Origin: Bradyrhizobium sp. 195
GTDB taxonomy: Bacteria; Pseudomonadota; Alphaproteobacteria; Rhizobiales; Xanthobacteraceae
Length of the DNA: 64,000 nt
Direction of reading: 5' to 3'
NCBI RefSeq assembly: GCF_023101665.1
Contig: NZ_CP082161.1
Span: 8,104,501-8,168,500 of the forward strand
A program made the translations under genes and the position numbers. The notes below the pieces were generated by a model, which was not told where the DNA came from, did no database searches, and worked only from the letters and a program-made list of their open reading frames with translations. Positions within the stretch are counted from its first letter, which is position 1. Every line of letters begins with the position of its first letter. Below are positions 54,806 to 63,715 of the stretch, one piece after another.

Positions 54806-55411
54806 ATGGACAAGTTCACCACGCTGGAAGGCGTCGCGGCGCCGCTGAAGATCATCAATGTCGACACCGACATGATCATTCCGAAGCAGTACCTCAAGAC
54901 CATCAAGCGCACCGGCCTTGGCAAGGGGCTCTTCTCAGAGCAGCGCTACAGGGACGACGGCAGCGAGAATCCGGATTTCGTCCTCAACCAGCCCGCCTAT
55001 CGCAATGCGAAGGTGCTGGTCGCCGGCGACAATTTCGGCTGCGGCTCGAGCCGCGAGCACGCGCCGTGGGCGCTGCTCGACTTCGGCATCCGCTGCGTGA
55101 TCTCGACCTCGTTCGGCGACATTTTCTACAACAACTGCTTCAAGAACGGCATCCTGCCGATCCGCGTCAGCCAGGAAGACCTCGACAAACTGTTCGACGA
55201 TGCCGAGCGCGGCGCAAATGCGACGCTGACGGTCGACCTGCCGAACCAGGAGATCCGCGGCCCCGACGGCGGCAAGGTCAAGTTCGAGATCGATCCGTTC
55301 CGCAAGCACTGCCTGATCAACGGCCTCGACGACATCGGCCTCACGATGGAGAAGAAAGCCTCGATCGACACCTATGAGGACAAGCTCAAGCGCGAACGCG
55401 CCTGGGCCTGA
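54806..55411 (+). CDS. leuD: 3-isopropylmalate dehydratase small subunit
   Basis: This 201-residue swivel-domain subunit pairs with LeuC. It shows [39 protein letters not shown] and [20 protein letters not shown] near residue 72, with [18 protein letters not shown] following. It lies 2.7 kb from leuC on the same strand. An intrinsic terminator follows. Confidence 0.97.
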
Positions 55412-55492: not shown

Positions 55493-56278
55493 ATGCTGTC
55501 CGAGATCGTCACCTTCTGGCATGGCCCGATGGACGCGCTGCGCCAGACCTGTCTGCGCTCGCAGCTGGCGGCTGGCCACAAGGTCACCGTCTACAGCTTC
55601 GACACCATTCCCGGCCTTCCCGCCGGTGTCGCCAACGCGGATGCCGAAGCGATCCTGCCGCACGCATTCTCCGAACGCTTGCGGCCACCGCAGCCGGACG
55701 GAAGCTGGCGCGACTGGACCACGCTTCAGTTCAGCGACTTCTTCCGCATGAAGCTGATGGCGAAGGGCCTCGGCCTCTGGCTCGACGCCGACGTGCTGCT
55801 CTTGAAGCCCGTCGAGATCGATCCGGCAAAGCCTTACTTTGCCTGGGAGCGCCCCCGGCAGCTCGGCAATTCCGTGATCTATCTGCCGCCCGACCACGGC
55901 ATCGTCAACGCCTTCGAGGAGCTGATGGAGCAGGAGGAACTGACGCCGAACTGGCTGTCGGTGCGCCACCGCATCACCTTCATGATGCGCCGCCTGCGCG
56001 GCGGCTCGAGCCGCCTCTCCGACATCCGCGTTGCGATCTATGGCCCCGCAGCGCTCACCGCGCTCGCGCGCCGCACCGGCGAACTCGCATGCGCGCTGCC
56101 GAAGCAGTCGTTTTATGCCGTGCATGCCGAGCCAAAACTCTTCTTCGATCCGTCAAGCTATCTCGGCCTCGTCACCAACCCCGAGATCATCGGCCTGCAC
56201 ATCTCGCCCAAGGGCCGCGGCGGCGAAAAGCCGATTCCGGGCAGCCTGTATGCCTGGGCTGCGGAGCGATTTGCTTAG
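55493..56278 (+). CDS. Glycosyltransferase with DXD motif
   Basis: This 261-residue protein resembles the sugar-binding-region DXD family (Gb3/alpha-1,4-glycosyltransferase-like). It has FWHGPMDALRQTCLRSQLAAG at the start, DWTTLQFSDFFRMKLMAKGLG near residue 77, and LWLDADVLLLKPVEI, whose DAD is the probable metal/nucleotide-sugar motif, near residue 98. KLFFDPSSYLGLVTN near residue 212 follows. The acceptor and donor are unknown. It is followed by a type C repeat. Confidence 0.85.
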   Translation: MLSEIVTFWHGPMDALRQTCLRSQLAAGHKVTVYSFDTIPGLPAGVANADAEAILPHAFSERLRPPQPDGSWRDWTTLQFSDFFRMKLMAKGLGLWLDADVLLLKPVEIDPAKPYFAWERPRQLGNSVIYLPPDHGIVNAFEELMEQEELTPNWLSVRHRITFMMRRLRGGSSRLSDIRVAIYGPAALTALARRTGELACALPKQSFYAVHAEPKLFFDPSSYLGLVTNPEIIGLHISPKGRGGEKPIPGSLYAWAAERFA

Positions 56279-56407: not shown

Positions 56408-56502
56408 AGCAATTTCCTTCTTTCCCAGTTTGATCCAGCGCAACGCGCTCCTGCATCATTGTGCTTAATTCGCTCCAATTCCGCTGTCCGAAGGAGCTTT
56501 CC

Positions 56503-56952
56503 ATGAGCACCGCAAGCAGGCCTTATCCCATCATGCAGGATCTCATCGACTCCTTTGCGAGCTGGCTGAAGCATCGCCGCGAGATGAACGAGATGCGGCA
56601 GCTCGACCGTGCCGATTTCGACCGCATCGCCAACGACCTCAGGATCGCACCTGACGATCTGGAGGAACTGGTTCGCCACGGCAAGCACTCCGCCGACGAA
56701 TTGCCGAAGATGCTGGAACAGCTTGGCATCAGCGCCGAAGGACTCGGCCGCGCGCAGCCGCTGTTGCTGCGCGACCTGGAACGCGTGTGCTCGCTGTGCA
56801 ATCACAAGGGCCAATGCGATCGCGAGCTGGCCGACGGCACCGCCGCGGAGAACTATCACGGCTTCTGCGCCAATGCCTCGACACTGGAGTCGCTCGATCG
56901 CAGCGACTTGGCGGCGCAGGACAACCAGAAGCCGGAGCTCTCGGTGCTGTAG
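56503..56952 (+). CDS. DUF6455 family protein
   Basis: This 149-residue protein has helical N-terminal two thirds (DSFASWLKHRREMNEMRQLD, FDRIANDLRIAPDDLEELV). A cysteine-bearing C-terminal part follows, with CSLCNHKGQCDRELADGTAA then NYHGFCANASTLESL. The four Cys (CxxC-x5-C and a later HGFC) look like a metal-binding site, which is inference. The family is DUF6455 by eye. AAGGAG precedes the ATG. A C-terminal fragment of a related gene lies at 60684-60851, on the far side of the TIR-WD40 gene. Confidence 0.85.
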   Translation: MSTASRPYPIMQDLIDSFASWLKHRREMNEMRQLDRADFDRIANDLRIAPDDLEELVRHGKHSADELPKMLEQLGISAEGLGRAQPLLLRDLERVCSLCNHKGQCDRELADGTAAENYHGFCANASTLESLDRSDLAAQDNQKPELSVL

Positions 56953-57198
56953 AACGCGCCGAGACAACCCCGTCACAATCTTCTTGCACAGGTCCGGATC
57001 CGGGGCCTGATCCGGCCGTCTTTCAATGGCTTAGCCGGCTCGGCGCTCGCGATGGCGGCAATCGCGGGCGCGCCTAGGTGTGAAGCACCTCATATGCTCG
57101 CCGGGCGCGCCGGTCTAGCCTGGGGCTTGTTCGCCTCGCGCCTGTCGTGATTCTCCTTTTCGATCATTGCGCGTGCTTCGTTCCGCAAGGGACACACC

Positions 57199-60153
57199 AT
57201 GGACGCCGCCATTGCTGCGAAAGCTGCTGTCGCCGCGACGAGCAACCGCGACCGGAAGACCCGCGTCTTCATCTCCTATTCCCGCAAGGACTCCGTATTT
57301 TCCAACCGGCTCGTCGATGCCCTCAACGCGCGCGGCTTCGAAGCCTATCTCGACAAGAAAGACATCTTGCCGGGCGAGCCGTGGCAGGAGCGGCTCGATG
57401 CGCTGATCCTTTCCGCCGACGCGATCGGCATCGTCATCAGCCCCGACCTGATCGCGTCTCCCGTCTGCGCGTGGGAGGCCGAACGAACCGAGAGCTTGCA
57501 GAAAAAACTTCTGCCGCTGGTGTACCGGCCTGTCGCCGACGCCGACCTGCCGCCACGCCTGGCGCGGCTCAACTACATCTTGCTGCGCGACGAGGACGAT
57601 TTCGATGTCGGGCTGTCGGCGCTGGCGGACGCTCTGGATACCGACATTGCCTGGATTCGCCAGCACACGCGCATCGGCGAGCTGGCGCAAAGGTGGGACG
57701 GAGCCGGCCGCCCGGCGTCCGGAGGCCGCCTGCTGCGCGGCGAGGAATTGGCCGACGCCGAAGCCTGGCTGCTCACCTCGCCCAAGGGTGCGCCGGACCC
57801 GACCGAGCTGCAGCGCGCCTATGTCCATGCGAGCCGCCTTTTCGAGACCGGCGAGATCGAAAAGGAACGCGCCGCGATCGCGCGCACGCGGCGTTTCCAA
57901 CGACGAAGCGCCTGGGCGCTCGCCGGCATCGCACTGCTCGTCGTCACCGGCGCGGGCTACGTCCTGTGGCAGCAGCGCGAGACGGATCGTCGCGAAATCT
58001 TGGTGATGACGAGCGCGGCACATCGTGCCATCGCCGAGAAGAGGTACGACACGGCCATGCGGATCGCGGTGGAGGGCCTGCCACCGCCGGGACGTTTACC
58101 GGTGACGCTGGGCTGGTCGACCCGCGAGGTCGCGGGACTCGAGGCGAAGCTCGCGGGTGCGGCCCAGCTCAGCCGGCTGCAACGCGTGCTGTCAGGCCAC
58201 ACGGATACAATCAACAGCGTTGCCATCAGTACCGACGGCACGCGCATTGTCAGCGGCTCGTCGGATCGAACCGCCCGGGTGTGGGACTCGCGAAGCGGCG
58301 AGCTGTTGCACGAGCTGAAGCATGAAGGTGCGGTGGGCCGCGTCGCATTCAGCTCAGACGGCAGGCGCGTCTTCACGGCATCGTCGAATGGTTCGGACAG
58401 CGTGCTGCGTTCGTGGGATGCCGTTAGCGGCACGCCGTCGGCCGCGATCAAGGTTGCCAGCAGCTACAGCTCCGTCAGGCGGATTTTTCTCGTCAGCGGA
58501 ACATTCAGCACCGACGGGAAACGGGCTCTGGTCGCCACCACATACAGTCGTGCGAATGTGTGGGACCTCACCAGCGGCAAGATCTTGGCAGAGCTCCAGA
58601 TCAAAACTCGCCCTGCCAGCGCCACCATCAGCGGCGACGGCACACGAGCGATCGTAGGGGGAATGGAAACGGCCCAGATTTGGGACACGACCAACAGCAC
58701 AATGCTGCATGAGCTGGCTGGACACAAGGACTACATCCACGCCGTTGCGTTCAGCGCGGATGGAACGAAAGTCGCGACTGGTGCGGGCGACCGGCTTGCA
58801 CGTGTATGGGACGCGGTCACCGGCAAGCTTATCCGCGAATTCGAGCCTCACGATGCAGAGGTCAAGGCAGTCGCGTTCAGTGCCGACGGATCGGCGCTCG
58901 TCACGACGTCAGCGGATCAGACCGTGCGATTGCTGAGTATCGCGACCGGAGGACTCCTGCTCGAGCTCAAAGGCCACGACGACGCGGTCACCGGCGTTGC
59001 ATTCAGCGCCGATGGCCGCATCGTCACCGGCTCGTCCGACCGCACGCTACGCATCTGGGACGCGACAAGCGAGCCACCGCCCTTGCGCCACGACAATCCC
59101 GTCGTGACCGCCGCCTTCGATGCCACAGGCTCACGAGTCATTACGTTGTCGGGCGCGGCCCGCATCTGGGACGCCGCCACCGGGAATATGCTCCGCGAAC
59201 TGCCTCTCAACGGTTTTGCCAATGATGCGGCCTTCAGCCCCGATAATGCGCTCATCCTGACGCTCTCGGAGAACATGGTCCGCGTGTGGGACGCCTCGAC
59301 CGGCGATACAATCCGCGAATTTCGCGACGATGAAGGGATTTACGGCGCGAGGTTCATAGCCGATCGCACCAGCCCCCATATCGTTCTCATGTTCCGCAAG
59401 CGCGCAGCGATATGGGACGCGAAAAGCGGTACGTTGGTGCGCGAGCTGAAGGACCACGGGGGCGGCTATGGCTCGCCCGGCGTCAGCGCCGATGGGCGGC
59501 TCATTTCCGACAGTCGAGGTGACCATGCCCGGATTTGGGACGCCGCAACCGGAACGTTGGTGCGGGAGATCGTGAGCCCAGGTGGTATATGGACTACGGC
59601 GCTGAGCCCGGACGGTAAACGTCTCACCACTACCGGGTTTTCGGGGCTTGTCCGCGTTTGGAATACCGACACCGGCGACATGTTGCGAGAACTCAGGGGC
59701 CATGCCGCCCAGGTTTCGAGTACCGCGTTCAGCGCCGATGGAACGCGCATCATCACGGCCTCGAACGATCGAACCGCGCAGATCTGGGACGCCGCGAGCG
59801 GTGAGGTTCTCCGCGTGATCGAGGGACATGGTCGCGGCCTGCAGACCGCCGTCTTCAGTCCCGATGGCGGACGCGTCCTCACTTCTTCGATGGATGGAAC
59901 CGCGCGCATATGGGACGTGAGCTTCGGGATGACGCTGCACGGTGACGCTCTCGTTCGAACCGTCTGCATGCAAAAGCTGGCTGGCGCGCAGACCTTCACG
60001 ATTGTGGATGCAATAGATCCGATCCTCGTCGGCCTCGCCGGCGTGAACCCCTGCCGCCAGCATGGACCGCTGTCATCGGAGTACTGGACCGATCTCGGCC
60101 GTGCCGTCGTCGAACGGTTCAAGAAACTGATCGGGCGCAATTCACGGAGCTGA
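57199..60153 (+). CDS. TIR domain-transmembrane-WD40 repeat protein
   Basis: This 984-residue protein has three parts. A TIR domain (about residues 20-140) has KTRVFISYSRKDSVFSNRLV, AYLDKKDILPGEPWQERL and VCAWEAERTESLQ, where Glu93 is in the position of the catalytic Glu of NAD-cleaving TIR domains. A linker (about residues 155-225, LLRGEELADAEAWLL, AYVHASRLFE) leads to one membrane helix (about residues 236-258). From about residue 325 to 910 there are 14 WD-type repeats ending in motifs such as ARVWDSRSG, AQIWDAASG and ARIWDVSFG, enough for two seven-bladed propellers. An N-in topology would put TIR in the cytoplasm and the propellers outside. Enzyme activity and role are untested inference. 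Confidence 0.9.
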   Translation: MDAAIAAKAAVAATSNRDRKTRVFISYSRKDSVFSNRLVDALNARGFEAYLDKKDILPGEPWQERLDALILSADAIGIVISPDLIASPVCAWEAERTESLQKKLLPLVYRPVADADLPPRLARLNYILLRDEDDFDVGLSALADALDTDIAWIRQHTRIGELAQRWDGAGRPASGGRLLRGEELADAEAWLLTSPKGAPDPTELQRAYVHASRLFETGEIEKERAAIARTRRFQRRSAWALAGIALLVVTGAGYVLWQQRETDRREILVMTSAAHRAIAEKRYDTAMRIAVEGLPPPGRLPVTLGWSTREVAGLEAKLAGAAQLSRLQRVLSGHTDTINSVAISTDGTRIVSGSSDRTARVWDSRSGELLHELKHEGAVGRVAFSSDGRRVFTASSNGSDSVLRSWDAVSGTPSAAIKVASSYSSVRRIFLVSGTFSTDGKRALVATTYSRANVWDLTSGKILAELQIKTRPASATISGDGTRAIVGGMETAQIWDTTNSTMLHELAGHKDYIHAVAFSADGTKVATGAGDRLARVWDAVTGKLIREFEPHDAEVKAVAFSADGSALVTTSADQTVRLLSIATGGLLLELKGHDDAVTGVAFSADGRIVTGSSDRTLRIWDATSEPPPLRHDNPVVTAAFDATGSRVITLSGAARIWDAATGNMLRELPLNGFANDAAFSPDNALILTLSENMVRVWDASTGDTIREFRDDEGIYGARFIADRTSPHIVLMFRKRAAIWDAKSGTLVRELKDHGGGYGSPGVSADGRLISDSRGDHARIWDAATGTLVREIVSPGGIWTTALSPDGKRLTTTGFSGLVRVWNTDTGDMLRELRGHAAQVSSTAFSADGTRIITASNDRTAQIWDAASGEVLRVIEGHGRGLQTAVFSPDGGRVLTSSMDGTARIWDVSFGMTLHGDALVRTVCMQKLAGAQTFTIVDAIDPILVGLAGVNPCRQHGPLSSEYWTDLGRAVVERFKKLIGRNSRS

Positions 60154-60180
60154 AGCGGACCAACGACCGCTTGATGATCT

Positions 60181-60684
60181 TCAGCCCTTGCTCATCGCCG
60201 CGATCGCGTCTGCGATTGCGATCGTGCGCCGGGCCATGTCGGCGTGCAGGCGCTCGACCATCGCACCGTCGAGACGGATCGCGCCGCGCGAGGCGTTTTC
60301 CGGCAGTTCGAACGCGGCGATGATCTTTCGCGCGCGCGCGACGTCTTCTTCGGGAGGCGTGAAGATCGCGTTGCAGGCGTCGATCTGCGATGGGTGGATC
60401 AGCGTCTTGCCATCGAAACCGAGATCGCGGCCTTGCGCGCATTCGGTGGCAAAGCCGTCGGAATTGGCGATGTCGCTGTAGGGGCCATCGAGAATTTCGA
60501 GGCCATGAGCGCGCGTCGCCAGGATGCAATGCGTGATCATCGGGATCATCGCGGCGCGGCCGGGCAGCATCCGGATCCGCGTCTCGCGCGAAATGTCGTT
60601 CGGGCCGAACACGAAGCCTGAGAGGCGCCTCGATGGATCACGCCCGGCGGCAGCCAGTTCCTCGGCATGCAGCACGGCGCGCCC
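60181..60684 (-). pseudogene. Truncated citE-like gene fragment (C-terminal half)
   Basis: These 504 bases match 62722-63225 at a constant offset of 2541 with only scattered differences. The encoded roughly 165 residues (from AVLHAEELAAAGRDPSRRL to ADAIAAMSKG) differ from the intact protein at one position (Asp/Glu in TPPEEDVARA). The N-terminal half, including the start, is missing, and the sequence upstream is the reverse complement of a DUF6455 gene. A 230-residue reading frame crosses the junction, but its N-terminal 65 residues are out of frame with anything real, so I call it a pseudogene. Confidence 0.9.
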
Positions 60685-60851
60685 AGCCGCTGCTGCTGCG
60701 CGGCATGGAGCGGGTCTGCTCGCTCTGCAATCACAAGGGACAATGCGACCGCGATCTCGCCGACGGCACCGCCGCGGAGAATTATCACGGCTATTGCGGC
60801 GACGCCTCGACACTGGAATCGCTCGCACGCGCCGACGTCGCGCCGCACTGA
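60684..60851 (+). pseudogene. DUF6455 gene fragment (C-terminal part)
   Basis: In frame, this reads QPLLLRGMERVCSLCNHKGQ, then CDRDLADGTAAENYHGYC and ASTLESLARADVAPH. It aligns with the C-terminal 55 residues of the DUF6455 protein at 56503-56952, with roughly one residue in four changed. All four Cys are kept. There is no start or N-terminal part; it joins the citE fragment at CGCGC (60678-60682). Confidence 0.88.
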
Positions 60852-60899
60852 GGTTCTGCAATCGATAGATCATTCAACGACTGGCGTGCTCGCCGCACG

Positions 60900-62573
60900 C
60901 TAGATCACACCAGTTCGCGCGCAAGCCTCGCGCCGGGCAAACCCTTTCACGAGCTTCTTGCAGGCACGATAGCGCTCTTCCATGCTCCCTCCGCCAACAC
61001 TTGCCGGCGCATGCGGCTCGGCAGTACTTTCCTTCTTGATGGCATGAGGCTGCGAGGCTTTTTCGCGCTTAGCTGAAGGGGCGACGTCCTGTGGCATCGG
61101 CACGAGCTGCCAGACCGGACCAAGCTCTATGTTCGCGGTCTCGGAGGGGTTCTCCTTCCTGAAGGAAGAAAGGGCCAGGACGTTCTTCTCCATCCTGACG
61201 GTAACTGGCGTCCCGGCGATCGAAAATTTATTGTCCGTGATGTACTCTGCAAACGATCGGTATCCCGCCTCGTCTTTTGCCCACGATGCCTTTGTCGGCG
61301 GCCCCCAGAGGTAGTAGCCTTTGGCTAACCCCGTGTCAGAGACCTCGGTCACGATCAGCATTGCATAGCGTCCCTTGCCATTCGTCCACCCACGCTTGTT
61401 GGACCACACCCCAACAAACCTGGAATCGGATTTCAGAGAGACATCCTCGCTGGACGAGATCGTGAAGTTCGGCAGCTTGAGCTGCTGTGCGGCCGCGATG
61501 GCGGCAACCTTTTGATTGTCCTCGGGCGCAAATAGATTTCGGGCAACCGCTTTCGTATCGGTCCCCTGACGCCCGCCTGCATCCGGTGCCGGGGAGGCAA
61601 CCGGAGGCGATACCGCCGCCACCTCCTTGGCCTTGATATCCTTGATCCGCTGGCGAGCTTCAGCAGCATGACTGCTGCGCGGATACCTAGCCAGAAACTC
61701 TTCATACGGGCCGGCCACTGTCGATGTCCGGATCGCCAGCCAGGACTTCTCGTCTTCCGCCGGAGCTGTAGGTACTGGAGATGGCGCAACAGGCGCCCGA
61801 GCATTAGCGGCGGGCGCTTTCAGGTAAATCTCCTCCTTCGACAAGGAGCCATACACAAAAGGCTGCTGTTCGCGCTTAGTCGCGGCCATCACGTCGTCGC
61901 GAACCCGACGAAACAGAAACGATATCTCAAGGCCCGATGTTTCGATGTGCCGAAGGAGCGATGCCGTAAAAGGGCTATTCCGGCCATCGCCGTCGCTCGC
62001 CGTGGTCCCGTCCCGGGCGGCGTATGCGATCAGAACGTTGTCGGATGGTTCGGTCGGCGCGAGTCCGCGCGCCACTGCCCTGGTGCTGATGGAACGCTTC
62101 ATCTTCGCCGCAAACGGGTTATTGCGGCACGCGTCGAGTATGACCAGGCCCAACTTCCGTGCCTTCGAAACCTGAAGGCTCACCGAACGTAGGCTGATGG
62201 CCTCGCTTTCGATGTCGGTATCGCTCCGCAGCTCCGCGCTGATGGGAATCAGCCAGTTCTCGCCGCCAACCTCCAAGCCGTGCCCGGCGTAAAATACAAC
62301 GGCGATGTCGGATCCCTCGGCAGAGCGGCCGAAGTCGACGACGGCCTTCCTCATCTCTTGCGCGGTCGCGTTCTTGACCTGGGTGACCTTGAAATCCAGT
62401 CGCTCCAGCGCGCGGCCGATGTCGGCCGCATCGCGGGTCGGGTTCGGCAGCTCAGGCACCTTCTCATAGGTGCCGTTACCGATGACAAGAGCGACCCGCG
62501 ACTGCTGCGCGAGCGCCGACTGAGCGAACAAGAGCGACGTGACGAGAAAGACTGCAGCCCTAAAGTTACGCAT
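60900..62573 (-). CDS. Secreted caspase-like (peptidase C14) protein
   Basis: This 557-residue protein has a signal peptide (MRNFRAAVFLVTSLLFAQSALA). The caspase p20-type domain runs from about residue 24 to 250, with VALVIGNGTYEKVPELPNP, the catalytic His98 in VVFYAGHGLEVGG and Cys149 in LVILDACRNNPF. A Pro/Ala-rich linker (about residues 260-345) precedes an unassigned C-terminal region (about residues 370-510, FVGVWSNKRGWTNGKGRYA) and a tail with several Cys. The ATG at 62573 is chosen to give a clean signal peptide. It faces the TIR-WD40 gene across the citE/DUF6455 scar. Substrate and function are unknown; many bacterial caspase homologues act in regulated death or envelope signalling. 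Confidence 0.9.
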   Translation of the reverse strand: MRNFRAAVFLVTSLLFAQSALAQQSRVALVIGNGTYEKVPELPNPTRDAADIGRALERLDFKVTQVKNATAQEMRKAVVDFGRSAEGSDIAVVFYAGHGLEVGGENWLIPISAELRSDTDIESEAISLRSVSLQVSKARKLGLVILDACRNNPFAAKMKRSISTRAVARGLAPTEPSDNVLIAYAARDGTTASDGDGRNSPFTASLLRHIETSGLEISFLFRRVRDDVMAATKREQQPFVYGSLSKEEIYLKAPAANARAPVAPSPVPTAPAEDEKSWLAIRTSTVAGPYEEFLARYPRSSHAAEARQRIKDIKAKEVAAVSPPVASPAPDAGGRQGTDTKAVARNLFAPEDNQKVAAIAAAQQLKLPNFTISSSEDVSLKSDSRFVGVWSNKRGWTNGKGRYAMLIVTEVSDTGLAKGYYLWGPPTKASWAKDEAGYRSFAEYITDNKFSIAGTPVTVRMEKNVLALSSFRKENPSETANIELGPVWQLVPMPQDVAPSAKREKASQPHAIKKESTAEPHAPASVGGGSMEERYRACKKLVKGFARREACARTGVI

Positions 62574-62721
62574 CAATTGATTGCCCGGATAAAATACCGG
62601 CAGCGAGGGTAGCACCGCTTTTTACAACCGCAATGAGAAAAGCGGAGCCCGAAAGATTTCGAGGGAATCGCCGCTCTCCGGACAAAACGGACGACTGTGT
62701 CGATGTTGTTCGGCTCTGACC

Positions 62722-63603
62722 CTAACCCTTGCTCATCGCCGCGATCGCGTCCGCGATTGCGATCGTGCGCCGCGCCATGTCGGCGTGGAGCCGCTCGACC
62801 ATCGCACCGTCGAGACGGATCGCGCCGCGCGAGGCGTTTTCCGGCAGTTCGAACGCGGCGATGATCTTTCGCGCGCGCGCGACTTCTTCTTCGGGAGGCG
62901 TGAAGATCGCGTTGCAGGCGTCGATCTGCGATGGGTGGATCAGCGTCTTGCCGTCGAAACCGAGATCGCGGCCTTGCGCGCATTCGGTGGCAAAGCCGTC
63001 GGAATTGGCGATGTCGCTGTAGGGGCCATCGAGAATTTCGAGGCCATGAGCGCGCGTCGCCAGGATGCAATGCGTGATCATCGGGATCATCGCGGCGCGG
63101 CCGGGCAGCATCCGGATCCGCGTCTCGCGCGAAATGTCGTTCGGGCCGAACACGAAGCCTGAGAGGCGCCTCGATGGATCACGCCCGGCGGCAGCCAGTT
63201 CCTCCGCATGCAGCACGGCGCGCGCGGTCTCGATCATGGCCCAGACCTTCACGGTCGCCGCCGCGCCAAGCTCGGCGAGGCGCCGGCCGATGACGTCGAG
63301 ATCTTCGATGCTTGAAACTTTCGGAACCAGGATGCCATCCGGCGAAGCCTTGGCGGCCATCGCGAGGTCATCGGCCCACCACGGCGTGTCGAGGCCGTTG
63401 GTCCGGATCAGGATTTCACGCCTGCCAAAACCCTTGGCCGCAATCGCAGCGGCGATGCCATCGCGCGCGACCGCCTTGGCGTCGGGGGCGACGGAATCCT
63501 CGAGATCAAGGATCAAGCCGTCGGCGGCAAGATTGCGCGCCTTTTCCAGCGCGCGGGGGTTGGAGCCGGGCATGAACAGATGGCTGCGGCGCGGGCGGGT
63601 CAT
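62722..63603 (-). CDS. HpcH/HpaI aldolase/citrate lyase family protein (CitE-like)
   Basis: This 293-residue CitE-like lyase has RRSHLFMPGSNPRALEKARN at the start, GLILDLEDSVAPDAKAVARD near residue 29 (metal-binding Glu/Asp region), EILIRTNGLDTPWWADDL and FVFGPNDISRETRIRML near residue 168. Such stand-alone CitE-like enzymes cleave or form malyl-CoA-type thioesters, but the substrate here is unknown. ATG at 63603 begins MTRPRRSHLF and is preferred to a longer frame. It is divergent from the carbonic anhydrase gene. Its 3' half is duplicated at 60181-60684. Confidence 0.93.
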   Translation of the reverse strand: MTRPRRSHLFMPGSNPRALEKARNLAADGLILDLEDSVAPDAKAVARDGIAAAIAAKGFGRREILIRTNGLDTPWWADDLAMAAKASPDGILVPKVSSIEDLDVIGRRLAELGAAATVKVWAMIETARAVLHAEELAAAGRDPSRRLSGFVFGPNDISRETRIRMLPGRAAMIPMITHCILATRAHGLEILDGPYSDIANSDGFATECAQGRDLGFDGKTLIHPSQIDACNAIFTPPEEEVARARKIIAAFELPENASRGAIRLDGAMVERLHADMARRTIAIADAIAAMSKG

Positions 63604-63715
63604 GCAAGCGTTCCTTCCGGTTTCCTCAAACGGGCTCTTGACCGGAGGCGATAGCACCTGGCCTGCCTATTCGAAAGGCTTGTTCGCCCCGACGGTATAT
63701 GTTTAGGCATAGGCC

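Follow-up and report, generated by a model that had tools for sequence, protein, structure and literature searches.

Neighbouring TIR-WD40 and caspase-family genes in Bradyrhizobium as probable independent cargo of a leuD-citE replacement hotspot

In Bradyrhizobium sp. 195, a gene for a protein with a TIR domain, a predicted transmembrane (TM) segment and WD40 repeats faces a gene for a caspase-family protein with an export-like N-terminus. The original prediction for this DNA had treated the two as a candidate signalling or conflict locus, in which the sensor-like repeats and the protease might meet outside the membrane while TIR acts inside. We studied them within a stretch of 64,000 nt (the window; contig NZ_CP082161.1, positions 8,104,501 to 8,168,500) and by comparison with related genomes. 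The two genes are probably independent cargo of a replacement hotspot that lies between leuD, a glycosyltransferase-like gene and a DUF6455-like gene on one side and citE on the other, with the TIR protein acting alone and the caspase as a separate peptidase. Their adjacency is most likely a by-product of the merging of two hotspot alleles, and not the mark of one pathway.

The genus has a replacement hotspot in the stretch that runs from leuD, the glycosyltransferase-like gene and DUF6455 up to citE. The conserved left boundary in the window is leuD (54806..55411, + strand); it is followed by the glycosyltransferase-like gene (GT, a label given without a family scan; 55493..56278, +) and by the DUF6455-like gene (56461..56952, +; 22.9 bits in Pfam, just below the cut-off of 23.7), which is the last recurrent gene on that side. 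The conserved right boundary is a citE-like gene of the HpcH/HpaI aldolase family (62722..63657, − strand; Pfam). In the 195 genomes of the genus, leuD was matched in 183 at E 1e-80 and citE in 188 at E 1e-120. Loci were picked from the 194 other genus genomes where both genes lie near each other, which makes the sample non-random and drawn mostly from a close clade. From 100 stretches taken (L065-L164), L067, L075, L080, L083 and L084 were dropped, as they lacked leuD or represented other places; the remaining 95 distinct relatives with both leuD and citE, together with the window, form the 96 loci used below.

GT lies within 250 bp of leuD in all 96 loci, and DUF6455 is present in 81 of them (match over 70 aa). 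The interval from DUF6455 to citE, which spans 56953-62721 in the window, ranges from 67 to 7937 bp (median 2320), and the 96 loci hold 59 cargo combinations, counting the empty one found in 15 loci; conserved flanks thus enclose cargo with a high turnover. Strains would swap this interval, with recombination in the conserved flanks as the probable means. The available text of PMC5635113 describes hotspots of horizontal gene transfer whose content is exchanged through recombination at the core genes on either side, and these have conserved flanks and fast cargo turnover in common with the spot described here; the difference is that here end remnants (see below) show repeated side-by-side joining of alleles. 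Other routes of entry were considered and set aside. Insertion by a tRNA-targeting integrase is unsupported, as no tRNA lies in 52-64 kb of the window, and a plasmid origin is unsupported by a 5375-bp query that matched one Methylobacterium record with 5% covered.

Among the cargo clusters, 47 have an ORF of at least 150 aa, and 20 of these occur in at least two loci. C14 caspases make up the largest cluster by gene number (22 genes in 20 loci). One representative from each of 30 of the 47 larger clusters was scanned against Pfam: 17, of which one is C14, gave a match, and 13 gave none. Most of the cargo that could be identified consists of Crp-like and AraC regulators, PAS-MCP, LssY_C, metallo-beta-lactamase fold, HAD, SDR, MFS and TonB receptor; the other matches are a caspase with TPR, UPF0182, an ion channel, DUF1254/DUF1214, DJ-1/AraC, a DUF6455 relative and an IS21-type pair. 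That pair, in L076, accounts for the only mobile-element genes among the 30 representatives and also for the sole rve-type core; no tyrosine or serine integrase was seen among them. On this sample, the content of the hotspot looks like general cargo. It could alternatively be a defence island, where both genes were gathered as defence cargo but act separately. The size of the C14 cluster fits such an island, and so does the description of TIR and caspase domains as effectors in predicted counter-invader systems, given in the available portions of PMC7159879 and PMC8195603. Set against the matches listed above, a defence island appears improbable to us, with the identity of the cargo read from 30 of the 47 larger clusters, 13 of these 30 lacking a Pfam match, and with a PADLOC scan that covered two window proteins and produced matches in their TIR, caspase and repeat parts.

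The TIR-WD40 gene was found in the ORF listing at 57199..60153 on the + strand, where it had been predicted. Its product of 984 aa consists of a TIR domain, a linker, one predicted TM segment, WD40 repeats and a C-terminal tail. In a Pfam scan, TIR_2 reached 79.6 bits (cut-off 28) at aa 23-138 (57265..57612, +) and WD40 reached 243.5 bits (cut-off 27). The propeller block was measured as aa 365-915 (58291..59943, +), its edges by dS lying near aa 365-385 and at about aa 925. The Glu93 position, which we take to be that of the catalytic Glu of TIR NADases, holds a glutamate in 221 of the 222 TIR sequences aligned, the window protein among them. Judged by Glu93 only, the window TIR is a putative NAD+-cleaving domain.

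The TM segment is predicted at aa 238-256 (57910..57966, +) from hydropathy and charge only; by hydropathy alone it is the strongest hydrophobic stretch within aa 190-350. The net charge is +5 in the 15 residues before this segment and 0 after it, so that by the positive-inside rule the protein would be oriented with its N-terminus in and its C-terminus out. Propellers outside the membrane, as originally proposed, are therefore the likely topology. This architecture suggests a TIR receptor in the membrane whose sensor can be exchanged, a role to which we give an even chance. The WD40 propellers outside the inner membrane would then respond to a ligand or to damage, and the cytoplasmic TIR domain, activated by clustering, would cleave NAD+, either as suicide or as a signal.

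The caspase gene (60900..62573, − strand, read from an ATG at 62573) encodes a protein of 557 aa. Peptidase_C14 scored 131.1 bits (cut-off 21.4) at aa 26-246, to which profile positions 2-230 align in the usual order, and His98 and Cys149 are invariant across 25 aligned C14 rows, among them the window protein; place, strand and dyad all agree with what had been predicted. The proposed signal peptide is also plausible by hydropathy and reading, as a hydrophobic segment at aa 4-22 precedes an ALA-Q site that to the eye resembles a Sec signal cleavage site. The C-terminal part of about 300 aa gave no Pfam match at 0.01, and against NF047832 (EACC1-associated caspase) the protein scored 63.7 bits, below the cut-off of 140. 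Among the 120 homologues listed of 152, every row that names an organism is Bradyrhizobium, and the caspase query matches 191 of the 195 genus genomes at 1e-60. We regard the product as a putative exported and separate peptidase, its proteolytic activity being predicted from sequence. As a side observation on this family, at G000:C2:236890-237544 two adjacent C14 matches (profile 1-72 and 78-227) fall in separate open frames and apparently represent one broken caspase gene.

The TIR and C14 genes are convergent, and the space between them holds truncated 3' ends of both flank genes. One is a copy of the citE 3' end (60185..60682, −), in which 60185-60484 duplicates 62726-63025 at 98%; the other is a copy of the DUF6455 3' end (60678..60851, +), in which 60678-60847 duplicates 56749-56918 at 85%. 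The duplication scar that had been noted near the two genes is therefore real. The two pieces have 5 bp in common, CGCGC at 60678..60682, which we infer to be the junction of two alleles. In alignment, the citE piece is 98.6% identical to the intact citE of the window and 92.3% to the best-scoring other, and both citE ends of the window seem to belong to the same species or to have been homogenised. The DUF6455 piece is 84.7% identical to the intact gene of the window and 92% to the L096 gene, which suggests that the DUF6455 end on the caspase side came from a different allele.

Our preferred reading of the locus is that an allele carrying TIR and one carrying the caspase became joined at the 5-bp match of the citE and DUF6455 pieces, and the scar would be there because two alleles of a gene-replacement spot were joined. 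While strains mostly swap the interval, occasional illegitimate joining at one end would put two alleles side by side and leave truncated pieces of the flank genes behind; in this case, a DUF6455-TIR-citE allele and a DUF6455-caspase-citE allele would have been joined between citE and DUF6455 at CGCGC. Remnants of this kind recur in other loci. Pieces of citE lie inside the interval in 10 of the 96 loci and pieces of DUF6455 or GT in 14, with both kinds in three (the window, L153 and L157); at least one flank remnant is present in 21 loci, all of them within the 81 that have an interval of at least 600 bp. In eight of the 10 loci with a citE piece, the piece matches the citE of another strain better than its own, the exceptions being L158 and the window. 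This closeness of the window's citE piece to its own citE counts against a merger with a foreign allele; the pieces may instead have arisen by duplication within the lineage, followed by a change of cargo. The merger of two alleles is nevertheless the reading that we carry forward.

The two genes are distributed independently of each other. The TIR gene occurs at the hotspot in two of the 96 loci and in strain G354, that is, in three strains, and in G046 and G354 the TIR allele stands alone (DUF6455-TIR-citE). C14 genes occur at the hotspot in 20 of the 96 loci by clustering, 19 of these without TIR, and a profile search gives 21 by adding a fragment in L087. Ten strains without TIR carry a caspase of the window type (at least 65% identity over at least 330 aa) in the hotspot interval. 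As 19 of the 95 other loci have C14, about 0.6 of the three TIR alleles would be expected to have it by chance, and one does; a caspase with one TIR allele out of three is also compatible with a weak association, which is a point against full independence.

Pairing is rare away from the hotspot as well. No C14 gene was found within about 20 kb in any of 12 other TIR loci, five from the same genome and seven from TIR-linker relatives in the genus; loci of about 20 kb were used for this search, those of 3-4 kb being uninformative. From the family and order, 39 of 40 TIR loci were examined, with G354 included and the contig-edge match G628:C71 left out. Two of these have C14: the L183 protein is itself a TIR-C14 fusion, and L214 has a C14 match about 9 kb from its TIR domain, a count that is a lower bound in view of several short contigs. 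At E 1e-30, the TIR N-terminal query (aa 1-321) matches six of 195 genomes in the genus, seven of 248 in the family and 16 of 397 in the order, the source genome being included each time. That genome (9.14 Mb) contains 21 C14 rows (about 20 genes) and six TIR_2 rows. With about 20 C14 genes spread over 9.1 Mb, simple arithmetic puts the chance that a random gene lies within 10 kb of one at about 4%; with six TIR genes, one TIR/C14 pair is therefore unremarkable.

These results bear directly on the idea of a two-component conflict system, in which the propellers would recruit the periplasmic caspase, or be cut by it, and so trigger TIR inside. The idea draws on the adjacency of the genes, on predicted topologies that are compatible with it, and on related TIR-linker modules fused to caspase-like domains (of a permuted type) or subtilisin domains; such fusions also speak against strict independence, as they make some connection between the two folds conceivable. 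Weighed against the independent occurrence at the hotspot, the absence of C14 near the 12 other TIR loci, the single fusion and single distant neighbour in the 39 loci from family and order, and the DUF6455 piece, which indicates separate alleles, we consider a two-component system highly improbable. The original prediction had made co-occurrence in relatives the check on its functional link, and co-occurrence proved rare; its anatomy, likely topology and duplication scar stand, whereas the link does not, with TIR alone in two of three strains, 19 of the 20 C14 loci lacking TIR and no C14 gene near any of the 12 other TIR loci. On the reading as independent cargo, the merging of alleles at a hotspot can produce a suggestive pair of immune-like genes and so mislead searches that identify defence systems through guilt by association.

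The TIR-WD40 gene shows a break in dS at the propellers. Between the window and G354, dS is 0.19 for aa 1-235, 0.28 for aa 236-285 (the TM region), 0.18 for aa 286-350, 0.90 for aa 365-915 and 0.26 for aa 925-984. The corresponding values between the window and G046 are 0.20 (aa 1-235), 0.27 (aa 286-350), 0.81 (aa 365-915) and 0.24 (aa 925-984), and those between G046 and G354 are 0.21, 0.24, 0.28 and 0.29 for the same four stretches; dS between the window and G046 is 0.16-0.34 for leuD, GT, DUF6455 and citE. The TM region is comparable with G354 only, as G046 is unreadable there: its TIR-WD40 gene (in L065) has a run of N, a gap or masked stretch, between the TIR-linker part and the propellers. 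An insert of 290 aa in the G046 protein is only apparent and corresponds to this run of N.

A change on the window's branch confined to the propeller block, either a divergent homologous replacement or a burst of conversion, would explain these values. From dS of 0.81-0.90 in the propellers as against about 0.2-0.3 on both sides, the sensor of the window receptor was probably exchanged. This conclusion comes chiefly from the dS profile, and protein trees are mixed: a tree of aa 365-625 still places the window with P0002 (support 99/97), and for aa 626-915 that placement is rejected by a narrow margin (p-AU 0.0445). The break could also come from gene conversion, with the WD40 repeats exchanging sequence inside the gene or with paralogues and the propellers alone becoming more divergent as a result. 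The repeat pieces are indeed mutually similar (family D2), and at least one strain has further relatives of the TIR-WD40 gene in its genome (four matches in G046); however, there is no rise between G046 and G354, where dS of the block is 0.28, which is more in keeping with an event on the window's branch than with a steady rate. We find conversion rather unlikely and retain sensor exchange as the explanation. If the receptor reading is true, near-identical TIR-TM parts that carry different propellers would constitute a natural experiment on sensor specificity.

TIR NADase effectors include ThsB of Thoeris systems and SARM1. The window protein shares with these the TIR domain and a catalytic-type Glu, and it differs from them in the fusion of TIR to a predicted TM segment and WD40 propellers. 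It scored 48.4 bits with the NCBIfam model for Thoeris ThcB4, below the cut-off of 220, and 37.6 bits at best with the ThsB models of PADLOC, which give no cut-off. The window caspase is similar to the orthocaspases covered in the available parts of PMC3501461 and PMC6426788 in its C14 His/Cys dyad and export-like N-terminus, and dissimilar in its C-terminal part of about 300 aa; in the former paper, as available, rhizobia are named as rich in prokaryotic caspase homologues. The NTP-dependent conflict systems described in the available portions of PMC7159879 and PMC8195603 likewise join effectors to propeller, TPR or FGE-type parts. Unlike them, the window TIR protein has no NTPase family among the 25 listed of its 54 Pfam matches, and its type has no recurrent partner gene, neighbour families other than TIR recurring in at most three of 46 TIR loci.

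Relatives of the TIR-linker module carry a variety of other parts. Homologues of aa 1-325, 102 in all, have the module attached to WD40, TPR, FGE-sulfatase or unassigned parts, and at least three of them (P0083, P0096 and P0100) carry nSTAND1. The L183 protein (L183:9565-11265, +), with 41% identity to the module, is a fusion of TIR-linker to C14. The search with this type of fusion gave 1057 homologues, 120 of which were listed (P0224-P0343), and 86 of those 120 match a custom C14 profile built from nine sequences of the window's own genome. Among these listed homologues, a p10-like half comes before a p20-like half in 84 of the 86, and two match one half only. When the halves were put in the usual order, the best-domain score rose in 80 of the 84, the median going from 36.6 to 64.8 bits. 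Aligned to the window caspase, His is kept in 34 and Cys in five of these 84 listed proteins. In a selected subset of 30 proteins, each one matches TIR_2 as well as Peptidase_C14 at 0.001. Related TIR modules are also found with subtilisin (PF00082; P0291, P0312, P0314, P0323, P0331, P0335 and P0338) and with a thiol isomerase-like domain (PF13462; P0327, P0336, P0339, P0341 and P0342).

Type III metacaspases, in which p10 precedes p20, are given as undetected in prokaryotes in the available text of PMC6426788, whose definition of p10 differs from the one used here. A search of the open-licence literature for named TIR-caspase or TIR-WD40 fusions and for permuted bacterial caspases returned nothing on point. 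We tentatively suggest, at somewhat less than even chances, that the window gene belongs to a wide TIR-linker-(TM)-X class that would combine one cytoplasmic TIR module with exchangeable sensors, where X may be WD40, TPR, FGE-sulfatase, thiol isomerase-like, subtilisin or a circularly permuted and mostly dyad-less caspase. Sensors would be recombined between strains and the TIR, TM and tail parts kept, as in an immune receptor under sensor diversification, and the permuted caspases would be sensors of protease descent. Two things here are worth following: the receptor, whose sensor was probably exchanged, and the relatives with permuted caspases. By hydropathy, the TM segment is weak in 18 of the permuted-caspase fusions (median 1.44).
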